Of a stretch of DNA of 64,000 nucleotides, positions 6,397 through 46,519 are shown piece after piece. The notes under the pieces are model-generated. The model saw nothing but the letters and a program-made list of their open reading frames with translations. It was not told the origin of the DNA and searched no databases. Positions within the stretch are counted from its first letter, which is position 1. The number at the start of each line of letters is the position of its first letter. This DNA comes from Nitratireductor aquimarinus. GTDB taxonomy: Bacteria; Pseudomonadota; Alphaproteobacteria; Rhizobiales; Rhizobiaceae. The position numbers and the translations under genes were made by a program. The stretch spans positions 186,001 through 250,000 of the forward strand of contig NZ_JAFKDE010000007.1 of assembly GCF_017255295.1 (NCBI RefSeq), given 5' to 3'.

Positions 6397-7482
6397 ATGA
6401 CGCGCATCCTTGGCATCGAGACGAGTTGCGACGAGACGGCAGCCGCCGTGATCGATGATCGTGGCGGCAAGACCGAGATACTTTCCAATGTGGTTTTTAG
6501 CCAGATTGCCGACCATGCAGCCTTTGGCGGCGTGGTGCCGGAGATCGCCGCGCGCGCCCATGTGGAAGCGCTGGACGGGGTGATCAAGGCGGCGCTTGAT
6601 GAAGCAGGCGTGTCGCTCACCGAGATCGACGCCATCGCGGCAACGGCGGGGCCGGGCCTGATCGGCGGGCTGATCGTGGGCCTGACCACCGCCAAGGCGA
6701 TTGCGGCGGCAAGCGGCAAGCGCCTTGTTCCCGTCAATCACCTGGAAGGCCATGCGCTGACGGCGCGGCTGACGGACGGGATCGAATTTCCCTATCTGCT
6801 TCTGCTCGTTTCAGGCGGGCACACGCAGATCGTTCATGTGGAGGGCGTGGGGCGCTATCAGCGCTGGGCATCCACCATCGACGATGCGCTGGGCGAGGCG
6901 TTCGACAAGACGGCGAAACTGCTTGGCCTGCCCTATCCCGGCGGCCCCAGCGTGGAAAAGGCGGCAGAAGGTGGCAACCCGAAGCGCTTTGCCTTTCCGC
7001 GTCCGCTCAAGGGCGAAGCGCGGCCCGACTTTTCGTTCTCCGGTCTCAAGACGGCCGTGCGGCGCGAGGCCTCTGCGCTGGCCCCGCTCGGCGAGGACGA
7101 CATTGCCGATATCTGCGCTTCCTTCCAGCAGGCGGTGACGGAAACGCTGAGCGACCGGGTGAAGCGAAGTCTGGAACGCTTCCGTGAAACCCATCCCGAC
7201 ATCGAAACGCCGGCGCTTGTGGTGGCGGGCGGCGTGGCTGCCAATCAGGCAATCCGCACCGCGCTTGACACGCTGTGTGACAAAACCGGTTTCCGCCTCA
7301 TCGCACCGCCGATCCGGCTGTGCGGCGACAATGCGGCGATGATCGCCTGGGCGGGTCTGGAGCGGCTCAAAGCAGAGCTTGGCGAGGACGATGCGCTCGG
7401 CTTCGCGCCACGCCCGCGCTGGCCGCTGGATCAGGCAGCGACACCACTTTTCGGCACCGGAAAACGAGGAGCCAAGGCATGA
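6397..7482 (+). CDS. tsaD: tRNA N6-adenosine threonylcarbamoyltransferase TsaD
   Basis: 361 aa. Transfers the threonylcarbamoyl group onto A37 of ANN-decoding tRNAs (t6A), together with TsaB/TsaE, which are not in the window. It begins with GIETSCDET, carries the metal-binding His115 and His119 in VNHLEGHA, then SGGHTQI, and ends with the ASKHA-fold motif [12 protein letters not shown]. Its stop overlaps the gpsA start (ATGA), so the two are translationally coupled. MtaB, encoded at 15-16 kb, acts on the t6A product of this enzyme. Confidence 0.97.
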
Positions 7483-42853: not shown

Positions 42854-45800
42854 CTACTTCTTCAGCTGATCCTTGAGGGCAGCGAGCTTGGCGAAGGGCG
42901 AATCGGGATCGATGCGCGCCGGACGCTCTTCGCGCGGACGGCCTGCGCCACCCTTGCGCTTGAAGCCCTGCTTGTCGCCATCCTTGCTGCGGTTAGGCTT
43001 GCCGCGATGCGGTGCGCCTTCGCGCTCCTGACGGCCACCACGCCCCTGCTGACGCTGATTGTTGCCCTTGCCGCCGCCCTGACGCTTGCGACCGTCGAAA
43101 CGGGCCTGACGCCAGATCATGACGGGCTTGGGCTCTTCCTCTTCGTCAGCGGCCTTTTCAGCCGGTGCCTCAGCGGCAGCCGGCGTCTCAACTTCCGGCT
43201 TGGCATCGGCTTCCGGCTTCGCCTCGGCTTCGGGCTTCGCTTCCTCGGCTGGCGCTTCAGCTTCAGCAGGCTTCTCTGCATCGGCGGGCGCGTCGTCCGT
43301 CTTCGAGGCGGCTTCGGCCTCGGCGGGAGCGGCAGCATCGGCAGCCTGGGCCGGTGCAGCAGCCTTCTCGGCAGCAGCGTCGTCCAGCGACTTCAGATGC
43401 GTTGCAACCTCTTCGGCCGGCTTCGCCTCGCCGCGGTAGCCCAGCCCCTTGAGGATGGCTTCCATATCATCGGCGGTCGCGCCGAGAATGGACATCATGG
43501 CCGGCGTGACCACAAAGGCCGCGCCATCATAACCGCCCTCGGGACGTGCGCCGGAACCCGGCTTCCACGAAAGTGCGGGACGGATCAGGTCGGCAAGGCG
43601 CTCGAGAATATCGACACGCACGGCGCGGCGACCCAGATTGCGATAGCCGGCAAGGCCATAGAATGCTTTTTCAAAAGCCGGATCGGACACGATGGAGGTG
43701 CGGCCGGCGGCAAGCGCATTGACCACATCGCCATAGCCCGGCTTGTCCTTGGCGTCGTTCTTGAGCGCCCAGAGCAGGGTGAGAAGGCCGGCAGGCGCAG
43801 GCTTGATCAGCGCCGGCACGAAAATGTGGTACGCGCCAAAGCGCACGCCGAGGCGGCGCAGCGAAGCGCGGGCGTCCTGATCGAGCGCACGCACATCCTC
43901 TGCCACGGTGCGCCGGTTCAGAAGGCCGAAGCTCTCGACAACCTGAAACGCGATCCCGCGCGCCATGCCCGAAAGGCTCTCGGCATCGCGCAGATCGACC
44001 AGCGGCTTCAGAAGCGATTCAATCTGATAGTTCACGAAACGCTCGGCGCGGGCGGCGACCTTGTCGCGCGCCGGGCCGGTCAGCTGCTCGTCGGCCAGAA
44101 GCACGACGCGCGGGCGCAGCGCTTCCTCACCGGAAACCAGCGTCGCCACCGGTTGGCCGAGCCAGCGCAGAAGGCCCTCGGAATCCAGCGCCAGATCGCC
44201 ATTGCCGGAAGCGGCAAAGCGGTCTGCCCGCGTTTCGAATTCGGCAGCGAGTGCTTTCTGGGCGGCAGCCTTGACGGCGCGCGCGTCCTCACCTTCCGCA
44301 GAGCGGTCGGCGGTGAAACGGAACCCTAGCATCTCACCAACGTGATGCCCCTCGACAAGGACTTCGCCAACGGGGCTGATTTCTGCTTCCGGCATTGCAT
44401 TCTCTCTCAGGCGCTTCATGAGCACGGATGTCCTGCGGTCCACAAAGCGTTTCGTCAATCGCTCATGCAACGCATCGGACAAACTGTCCTCTATCTCTCG
44501 TGTTTTTTCTTGCCAGTGTGTCGCATCGGCCAGCCATCCGGGCCGGTGCGAGACAAATGTCCATGTTCTGATCTGCGCAATACGCTGCGACAGTGTGTCG
44601 ATGTCCCCCTCGGTGGACGAGGCGCGCTGAACCTGCTCAGCCATGTAGTCTTCATCGACATGGCCCGTTCGCGCCAGATCAGAAAAGACTGCACCAACAA
44701 TTTCTGCGTGGTGGGCCGGTGCGATGCGCCGGTAATCCGGCAGCGCACAGGCGTCCCACAGGAGGGCCACACGCTCGCGGGCGTCGGCCAGCGCACGCAC
44801 ATCCCCGTCACGCGACAGGAATTCGAGCACCTTGGCGTCGGCAGCGGGCAGAGCGCGGGTAAGGCCTTCCACGGGGGGCGTAACGTCGAGCGAGGCTTTG
44901 AGCGCATCGACGCTGGAGAAATCAAACGCGGCGGAGCGCCATTGCAGCACTTTCACCGGGTCGAAATCATGCGCCTCGATGCGGTGAACGAGTTCATCGG
45001 AAAGGGGATCGACCTGGCCGGTGACGCCAAACGTGCCGTCACGCAGGTGACGGCCGGCGCGGCCGGCGATCTGCCCGAGCTCCGCAGGGTTGAGGTCGCG
45101 ATACTGGAAACCGTCGAATTTGCGGTTCTGCGCGAAGGCGACATGATCGACATCGAGGTTCAGGCCCATGCCGATGGCGTCGGTCGCCACGAGATAGTCC
45201 ACATCACCCGACTGGTAGAGGGCTACCTGCGCGTTGCGCGTGCGCGGGCTGAGCGCGCCAAGCACGACAGCCACCCCGCCGCGCTGGCGGCGGATCAGCT
45301 CGCCAATGGCGTAAACCTCGTCCGACGAGAAGGCCACGATGGCCGAGCGGCGCGGCAGGCGCGTGATCTTGCGCGAACCGGCATAGCTGAGCACCGACAT
45401 GCGCGGACGGGTGATGACGGAGAGGCCCGGCAGCAGCTTTTCAAGAATGCCGCGCATGGTGCCCGCGCCCAGAAGCAGCGTTTCCTGACGGCCGCGCAGA
45501 TGCAGAATGCGGTCGGTGAAGATGTGGCCGCGCTCCAGATCGGCGGCGAGCTGCACCTCATCGATCGCCACGAAGGCGGCGTCGGTCTCGCGCGGCATGG
45601 CCTCGACCGTGCACACCGAATAGCGCGCGCCGGGCGGCGATATCTTTTCTTCGCCGGTGACAAGCGCAACATTTTGCTCGCCGACCTTGGCGACGACGCG
45701 GGAATAGACTTCGCGCGCAAGCAGCCGCAGCGGCAGGCCAATCACGCCCGTGCCATGCGCAACCATGCGCTCGATGGCCAGGTGCGTCTTGCCGGTATTG

Positions 45801-45874
45801 GTCGGCCCGAGGATGGCCGTTACGTCACGACCCGACAACACTCTCGGCTTGGCATTCTGTTTTTGGAAATTCAT
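42854..45874 (-). CDS. mgpS: SUV3-like DEAD/DEAH RNA helicase MgpS
   Basis: 1006 aa from the ATG at 45874 (MNFQKQNAK). SUV3-type helicase core: Walker A ILGPTNTGKTHLA (about 20-32), motif II IDEVQLA, then LVATDAIGMGLNLDV (motif V) and QIAGRAGRHLRDG (motif VI). The middle is helical. From about 870 comes a long Ala/Glu/Pro/Lys linker, then a basic Arg/Gly/Lys/Gln tail (about 935-990) suited to RNA binding. Rhizobial MgpS was linked to glycan production and growth control. The upstream 645 bp holds LexA-box modules. Confidence 0.9.
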   Translation of the reverse strand: MNFQKQNAKPRVLSGRDVTAILGPTNTGKTHLAIERMVAHGTGVIGLPLRLLAREVYSRVVAKVGEQNVALVTGEEKISPPGARYSVCTVEAMPRETDAAFVAIDEVQLAADLERGHIFTDRILHLRGRQETLLLGAGTMRGILEKLLPGLSVITRPRMSVLSYAGSRKITRLPRRSAIVAFSSDEVYAIGELIRRQRGGVAVVLGALSPRTRNAQVALYQSGDVDYLVATDAIGMGLNLDVDHVAFAQNRKFDGFQYRDLNPAELGQIAGRAGRHLRDGTFGVTGQVDPLSDELVHRIEAHDFDPVKVLQWRSAAFDFSSVDALKASLDVTPPVEGLTRALPAADAKVLEFLSRDGDVRALADARERVALLWDACALPDYRRIAPAHHAEIVGAVFSDLARTGHVDEDYMAEQVQRASSTEGDIDTLSQRIAQIRTWTFVSHRPGWLADATHWQEKTREIEDSLSDALHERLTKRFVDRRTSVLMKRLRENAMPEAEISPVGEVLVEGHHVGEMLGFRFTADRSAEGEDARAVKAAAQKALAAEFETRADRFAASGNGDLALDSEGLLRWLGQPVATLVSGEEALRPRVVLLADEQLTGPARDKVAARAERFVNYQIESLLKPLVDLRDAESLSGMARGIAFQVVESFGLLNRRTVAEDVRALDQDARASLRRLGVRFGAYHIFVPALIKPAPAGLLTLLWALKNDAKDKPGYGDVVNALAAGRTSIVSDPAFEKAFYGLAGYRNLGRRAVRVDILERLADLIRPALSWKPGSGARPEGGYDGAAFVVTPAMMSILGATADDMEAILKGLGYRGEAKPAEEVATHLKSLDDAAAEKAAAPAQAADAAAPAEAEAASKTDDAPADAEKPAEAEAPAEEAKPEAEAKPEADAKPEVETPAAAEAPAEKAADEEEEPKPVMIWRQARFDGRKRQGGGKGNNQRQQGRGGRQEREGAPHRGKPNRSKDGDKQGFKRKGGAGRPREERPARIDPDSPFAKLAALKDQLKK

Positions 45875-45998
45875 AGGGCCTGAAAAGCCGTCTACCTCAG
45901 CGAAAAAAGGCGAGCACACGGGTTAGCATGCTTTGCATGCGCATTCCAAGGCAAGACTGCCAAAAATGACCCAAACCGTTTCCGGCCATTAAGATTTG

Positions 45999-46013
45999 GA
46001 ACGAGTCTGGAAC
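45999..46013. promoter_or_regulatory. Perfect LexA box, module 1
   Basis: GAAC-GAGTCTG-GAAC matches the alphaproteobacterial SOS box GAAC-N7-GAAC exactly. It lies 125 bp upstream of the mgpS ATG. A degenerate partner box, TTTC-N7-GTTC, is at 46044-46058. Confidence 0.6.
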
Positions 46014-46029
46014 GAATCGGCTACGAATC
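46003..46029. promoter_or_regulatory. Three GANTC sites at 11 bp spacing
   Basis: GAGTC (46003), GAATC (46014) and GAATC (46025) are exactly 11 bp apart and overlap the LexA box. Module 2 repeats the last two (46288, 46299) at the same spacing. GANTC is the target of the cell-cycle methyltransferase CcrM. Confidence 0.6.
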
Positions 46030-46317
46030 ACTGACCTGCGTTGTTTCCCGTTTTGTTCACCACAAGATAGAGTATGACGCAACGTAAAGACACCCAAATG
46101 CTGAATCGGGCATGTTCCGCAAAGCCGGAAAACGCGTGGCGCGCGTTAAGGATTTGCGCGGGAAGCGCGACGGGCCTGCCAGGCAACGGTGCAAGCATAA
46201 GATTTTGTTAGGATTTTTTGCGAAGCCGTTAACGGGTTACGGCCCCGCCATGCCGCATGGCGTTAACACTTCGACCAAACCCGGAACGAATCGGCTACGA
46301 ATCACTGATATCCAGAT

Positions 46318-46332
46318 GTTCCCGCTACGTTC
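46318..46332. promoter_or_regulatory. Perfect LexA box, module 2
   Basis: GTTC-CCGCTAC-GTTC, the same box on the opposite strand. The companion site of module 2, GACC-N7-GAAC at 46273-46287, is degenerate. Thus each module has one perfect and one decayed box, at reciprocal positions. Confidence 0.6.
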
Positions 46333-46460
46333 ACCGCAATATCTGGTGGTTTCCACCGGTTCCGGGCAGACAGCGCACAGTTTATCCACAAACGCGCCCG
46401 CACAGCCTGAATGCCGCGTTAACGAAGCTGTCTCAAATTGATACGCATTTTAACGAAACA

Positions 46461-46487
46461 GGGCGCTGCGGTTTACCCACAGCGCCC
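46461..46487 (-). terminator. Probable terminator after phaB
   Basis: GGGCGCTG (46461-46468) pairs with CAGCGCCC (46480-46487) around an 11-nt loop, 33 bp after the phaB stop on the minus strand. Only a weak T-rich tail follows. Confidence 0.55.
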
Positions 46488-46519
46488 CGAAAAATGAATG
46501 CACAGGACGTGCCTTTTCG

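Follow-up and report, generated by a model that had tools for sequence, protein, structure and literature searches.

A conserved tandem non-coding element upstream of the Suv3-like helicase gene mgpS, a candidate composite regulatory region in the rhizobial order

The window analyzed here, a stretch of 64,000 nucleotides from Nitratireductor aquimarinus, contains the minus-strand gene mgpS, whose product matched the DEXQc_Suv3 (1.6e-25) and Helicase_C domains in a Pfam domain search, in line with the Suv3-type helicase named in an earlier, sequence-only reading. The genes phaA, phaB and mgpS are all transcribed leftward, and the intergenic space of about 650 bp between phaB and mgpS is filled by a non-coding element built around two modules of about 90 bp (Table 1). 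Because phaB has a terminator-like hairpin, phaA-phaB transcription probably ends before the element. On the mgpS side, a block conserved within the genus (CTTGGAAT ... GCTAACC) is a possible mgpS promoter.

Table 1. Features of the interval between mgpS and phaB, with positions in the window
Feature	Position	Strand	Remark
mgpS, Suv3-like helicase	42854..45874	-	ATG at 45874; gene downstream of the element; from the ORF list
Genus-conserved block GGTTAgCA...ATTCCAAG	45919..45950	-	Seen on aligning 10 loci from the genus
Module 1, mgpS-proximal copy	45988..46074	+	Profile R1 match, E 4.3e-22 in own genome
GAAC-N7-GAAC, LexA-type direct repeat, module 1	45999..46013	+	Perfect in 127/131 proximal modules of the order
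Three GANTC sites (46003, 46014, 46025), 11-bp steps in GGAACGANTC repeats	46003..46029	+	
TTTC-N7-GTTC, module 1 right arm	46044..46058	-	Right GTTC near-invariant; first half ATTC in most relatives
Palindrome-like 3' end of module 1	46063..46072	.	NrdR-box-like in relatives, imperfect here
GANTC inside conserved ATGCTGAATC block right of module 1	46103..46107	+	
GTTAAC, CtrA-half-site-like, inter-module spacer	46228..46233	.	Enriched in relatives
Module 2, distal copy	46262..46349	+	Profile R1 match, E 6.5e-21 in own genome
GACC-N7-GAAC, module 2 left arm	46273..46287	+	Family has conserved G-N-N-C-AAA arm
Two GANTC sites of module 2 (46288, 46299)	46288..46303	+	
GTTC-N7-GTTC, module 2	46318..46332	-	Perfect in 22/122 distal modules
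CAATATCTGGTG, module 2	46337..46348	.	Like NrdR boxes upstream of nrdJ, same genome
DnaA box TTATCCACA, 3' of module 2	46382..46390	+	Kept in genus
GTTAAC, CtrA-half-site-like, right of module 2	46418..46423	.	
Intrinsic-terminator-like hairpin of phaB	46459..46489	-	Strong

The two modules form a gap-free alignment with a 274-bp offset (45989-46068 against 46263-46342; 80 bp, 74% identity) and share 26 identical bases (46009-46034 and 46283-46308). Each carries one perfect GAAC-N7-GAAC box, on opposite strands, together with one divergent arm, TTTC-N7-GTTC in module 1 and GACC-N7-GAAC in module 2. The offset, the shared bases and the boxes with their arms had been described in the sequence-only reading and were recovered with the same sequences at the same positions. 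The reading also held two perfect boxes in 334 bp to be unlikely by chance, which stands for their clustering and not for their number. Since 1.88 GAAC-N7-GAAC matches are expected by chance in 64 kb, the two found in all are ordinary; given two matches, however, the chance of their falling within 334 bp is about 0.01, and the probability of at least two in a fixed stretch of that length is about 5e-5. Own-genome searches gave no copies beyond these two: the 26-mer core did not recur in the 4.57 Mb genome with up to three mismatches allowed, and R1, a sequence-only profile built from 47 modules, identified modules 1 and 2 as the only copies. A dispersed repeat or mobile element was rejected on the basis of these searches. 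Two weak chance matches to the module profile fell in an unrelated palindromic dispersed repeat of the same genome (CTTCGTCATCCTCGGACTTGATCCGAGGATCCATGCC...; C13:2694-3284, L039/L040).

The element is conserved well beyond the genus. The phaB-mgpS intergenic region was matched by BLASTN in 25 of 60 relatives. Among sampled genomes, profile R1 matched 230 of 297 from the order, mostly as two copies and as up to five in tandem, and 24 of 240 from across the class, with a single copy in each genome outside the order; many loci come from close relatives (Mesorhizobium, Rhizobium), and these counts therefore do not represent independent events. Genera and families with the module in the named scan include Rhizobium, Mesorhizobium, Ensifer, Brucella/Ochrobactrum, Bartonella, Hoeflea, Martelella, Phyllobacterium and Beijerinckiaceae, among others. 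Loci in that scan were picked by a core 20-mer that fixes the second GAAC and CGAATC and leaves the first GAAC and the right arm free, so that box counts are non-circular for the latter two parts. In all 178 loci with a detectable mgpS, the modules lie upstream of it in the same orientation, and the first module starts a median of about 99 bp from the mgpS start, gene starts being approximate. The neighbor on the opposite side varies by lineage and may be phaB, phaA, an acyl-CoA dehydrogenase-like gene, a flavin monooxygenase-like gene, rpmB or others (names other than phaA and phaB were assigned by eye). Because this neighbor changes while mgpS is constant, the element belongs to mgpS and not to phaB. 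In two class members (L226 and L227), a module is present and mgpS was not detected within 1.5 kb; these loci could show a module detached from mgpS.

Similarity divides the modules into a proximal and a distal set of orthologs, both ancient. Of 117 proximal modules, 112 had their closest relative among the proximal modules of other loci, and distal modules were closest to distal ones in 114 of 117. Copies cluster by position across loci, and the duplication therefore predates the divergence of these genera. A recent local duplication with chance LexA-like matches would agree with the 1.88 boxes expected in the window, but it is refuted by the relatives, in which both copies are kept as distinct sets order-wide, and we give it next to no credence. 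The spacing between modules is fairly constant at about 200-290 bp and has no clear helical period. In some Rhizobiaceae the distal module lies 0.8-1.7 kb off, with another gene between the modules. A gene for a small glycine-zipper lipoprotein (MKK..LASCT..GAAxGAVIGG) lies between the modules in some members of this family, and the distal module follows about 70 bp past its stop (examples, with modules on the plus strand: L097:~6440-6692, L144:1990-2247 and L178:2277-2531).

On the plus strand, the proximal consensus reads TTAA-N6-GGAACGAGTCT-GGAACGAATCG-GCGACGAATCA-CTGAC-N8-ATTC-N7-GTTCACC-N-CWANATNTKGTG, with the left half of the module formed by an 11-bp repeat of the unit GGAACGANTC. Invariant over 47 modules are GAAC (columns 24-27), CGAATC (38-43), TT (59-60) and GTTC (69-72). 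Core columns 31, 35, 36 and 44 carried the same base in both modules of a genome more often than in shuffled pairs, in a test that takes no account of phylogeny. This pairing would fit either one common reader or gene conversion.

The sequence-only reading had interpreted the pair as SOS modules containing two perfect and two decayed LexA boxes, and had proposed alignment across relatives to see whether the boxes are kept. Of 174 loci of the order, 162 have at least one perfect LexA-type match. Among 131 proximal modules, 127 have a perfect left GAAC-N7-GAAC, and this box is kept despite 56 distinct N7 spacers among the perfect boxes, which indicates a real constraint on the LexA-type half-sites. 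By contrast, it is perfect in 18 of 122 distal modules, where G-N-N-C-AAA is kept instead, and in 2 of 17 modules outside the order. The right box, GTTC-N7-GTTC, occurs in 12 of the 131 proximal modules and in 22 of the 122 distal ones; its usual proximal form is ATTC-N7-GTTC, mostly within GATTC and so part of a GANTC site. Retention therefore holds for the proximal GAAC-N7-GAAC, whereas the perfect box of module 2 is lineage-restricted. The arms taken to be decayed are in fact conserved alternatives (ATTC in proximal modules, G-N-N-C-AAA in distal ones) in copies that form separate ortholog sets, so that "two perfect, two decayed" describes this genus and not the element.

How LexA-like the boxes are was assessed with a matrix built from the lexA promoters of the order. 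The two GAAC-N7-GAAC sites rank first and second of 128,000 window positions, with scores of 14.7 and 13.6 against 26.4 for the genome's own lexA box. When the eight fixed bases were left out, proximal boxes had a median score of -5.0, compared with 9.3 in lexA boxes and -9.2 in random sequence, and the AT fraction of the spacer was 0.37 in proximal boxes versus 0.69 in lexA boxes. The modules share with alphaproteobacterial LexA operators such as that of lexA (GTTC-N7-GTTC / GAAC-N7-GAAC) a GAAC direct repeat of 11-bp period, a purine after the first GAAC (55 of 56 distinct boxes) and closeness to the start of the downstream gene, and the lexA box of one family (GGAACAAGTCTGGAAC) differs by a single base from that of module 1 (GGAACGAGTCTGGAAC). 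Unlike those operators, they have a GC-rich spacer and a second half-site GAACG rather than GAACA, their box is part of a conserved 90-bp array that has other invariant blocks, and their first half-site is often missing outside the order and in distal copies. Given the matrix ranks and scores, the spacer scores and the scarcity of perfect boxes outside the order, we take LexA to be a plausible but unproven binder of the element in vivo, at somewhat less than an even chance.

Regulation by the SOS response proper, in which LexA would repress mgpS through GAAC-N7-GAAC and DNA damage would induce the gene, is a reading that we hold possible while leaning against it. The near-universal proximal box, the purine after GAAC, the one-base difference from the lexA box of one family and the two best matrix scores in the window all speak for it, as does the detection of lexA in 287 of 297 genomes of the order. 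The distance of those scores from that of the own lexA box, the GC-rich spacers, the 2 of 17 perfect boxes outside the order and the conservation of arms even where they are un-LexA-like speak against it. With lexA in nearly every genome, a presence/absence test is uninformative, G568 excepted. In this genome from the class sample (L234), listed as 99% complete, lexA was undetected and the mgpS module contains a perfect GAAC-N7-GAAC; a genome of the same genus has lexA, so its loss from the G568 assembly is possible. The description as SOS modules is only partly supported. The modules are kept, look functional and nearly always retain the proximal box, but the label itself is not established, because of the conserved alternative arms, the lineage-restricted distal box, spacer and flanks unlike those of lexA operators and the absence of RNA support (below); it would also miss the conserved GANTC, TTAACC-type and DnaA-box content.

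GANTC is depleted fourfold in the window (71 occurrences versus about 300 expected from shuffles), yet six sites fall within 301 bp at the element (P ~9e-7). Across the order, a 90-bp module contains on average 4.2 GANTC sites if proximal and 1.9 if distal. Such dense, conserved GANTC in a GANTC-avoiding genome is a likeness to promoters under GcrA/CcrM control, from which the modules differ by their fixed 11-bp array and tandem 90-bp organization. The clustering and conservation of GANTC characteristic of CcrM/GcrA-controlled promoters are found here, and GcrA is a putative binder. Outside the modules, GTTAAC occurs 113 times in 76 loci against 5.3 expected, and the 8-mers with the strongest enrichment include TTAACCTT and TTAACCAT; the latter matches a CtrA motif known from work in Caulobacter. 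The classical CtrA site, TTAA-N7-TTAA (PMC9437464), is rare at these loci, and the CtrA reading is therefore tentative. LexA motifs are known to overlap readily with GANTC sites (PMC7987155).

The sequence-only reading had named an unannotated RNA between the modules as another possible target, a suggestion for which we found no evidence. Searches against Rfam gave no family at its gathering score in relatives and none close to it here, single folds of the inter-module spacer showed no unusual folding, and a consensus scan recognized no sigma-70-type promoter. A structured RNA was rejected after RNAalifold on 47 modules gave 0 covarying pairs and -1.29 kcal/mol. Each module might alternatively be the promoter of a small RNA running away from mgpS, as the near-constant spacing of modules and the conserved ATGCTGAATC block past module 1 could suggest, but the spacers diverge even inside the genus, and this together with the Rfam, folding and promoter results makes the idea improbable. 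Promoters of the EcfG/RpoE2 type have the motif GGAAC-N16-17-GTT; such a promoter was rejected, as the consensus alignment has no GTT at the right distance. A small ORF starting from ATGCTGAAT was likewise discarded, since by eye the genus alignment shows no codon-like conservation.

The DnaA box, CtrA-type TTAA sites, GANTC and non-coding DNA recall an alphaproteobacterial oriC, which lies at hemE. The element differs in having few DnaA boxes and in lying away from hemE and the skew switch. In genome G002 the GC skew flips at hemE (1.72 Mb) and not at the element (1.23 Mb), 0.49 Mb away, and in G229, where coarser sampling of the skew was less decisive, no switch was seen at the element. An origin is also ruled out by the variable distance between element and hemE, which ranges from about 37 kb to about 2.3 Mb. 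A broader version of this explanation would have the element act as a chromosomal site in replication, the cell cycle or the nucleoid, not mainly in mgpS transcription, with motifs for DnaA, CtrA and CcrM at a fixed locus. The DnaA box and the clusters of GTTAAC and GANTC would suit such a site, tandem copies persist even when genes are inserted between them, and the element lies within the hemE-proximal half in most closed genomes measured. Its attachment to mgpS wherever mgpS is found, the skew result and the range of hemE distances nevertheless make this explanation unlikely.

We consider that the twin modules probably constitute a conserved composite cis-regulatory region of the mgpS operon, acting at the DNA level. 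Each module would be a protein-binding array that combines GGAACGANTC units recurring every 11 bp, about one helical turn, with a TTC-N7-GTTC arm in opposed orientation and a palindrome at the end. Proteins bound side by side on one face of the DNA would set mgpS transcription according to DNA status. Inputs might include methylation of the GANTC sites by CcrM, with GcrA as the reader, and CtrA half-sites of the TTAACC type located between the modules and outside them; the proximal GAAC-N7-GAAC, about 100 bp upstream of the mgpS start, could be occupied by LexA or by a protein of the same geometry. The motifs, how widely they are kept, their constant tie to mgpS and the lack of copies elsewhere can be read from the sequences, whereas the identity of the binding proteins, mgpS as the target and any response to damage or the cell cycle are inferred. 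This interpretation is favored by the breadth of conservation in order and class and by the invariable link to mgpS, also where phaB is replaced. The invariant blocks, the retention of the proximal box across many different spacers, the excess of GANTC and GTTAAC and the lack of RNA structure and of further genomic copies likewise favor it, and the paired core columns look as if one protein reads both modules. Against it count the un-lexA-like proximal spacer, the lack of a sigma-70-type promoter, the box in G568 without detected lexA and the remote distal module of some Rhizobiaceae, an arrangement that would be surprising in a simple operator of mgpS. The position of that module beyond an inserted gene would allow the element a further role besides mgpS transcription.

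More tentatively, and with rather less confidence than in the regulatory region itself, we suggest that this may be a regulatory DNA element, so far undescribed, that extends across the alphaproteobacteria, keeps an invariant GAAC...CGAATC...GTTC core, is tandem in the rhizobial order and is read by a common protein complex that would join methylation, replication and DNA-damage signals at mgpS. No prior description of the element was found in the literature searched. For mgpS/SMc03877/SMc03878, the literature reports acid induction in Sinorhizobium meliloti (PMC4941405), and the other mentions found were in virulence-gene lists only. It is unusual for a 90-bp non-coding element to be kept over much of a class upstream of a single gene, and the element would make this Suv3-like helicase, whose bacterial role is almost unstudied, a candidate node at which DNA methylation, the cell cycle and perhaps the SOS response meet. 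The module could serve as a precise bait for isolating its binding protein in model strains.

The palindrome at the 3' end of the module, CWANATNTKGTG, resembles two boxes that precede nrdJ in this genome. In Escherichia coli, NrdR recognizes a pair of boxes 15-16 bp apart (PMC12176259). The modules differ from this arrangement, as their alignments contain one palindrome each and no operator pair of that spacing, and the downstream gene is not a ribonucleotide reductase gene. The boxes upstream of nrdJ (L238, contig C10 of the own genome) are the NrdR-like CACTACATGTAGTG and CACTATATTTAGTG, 246 bp apart, and a third, weaker box lies closer to the gene.
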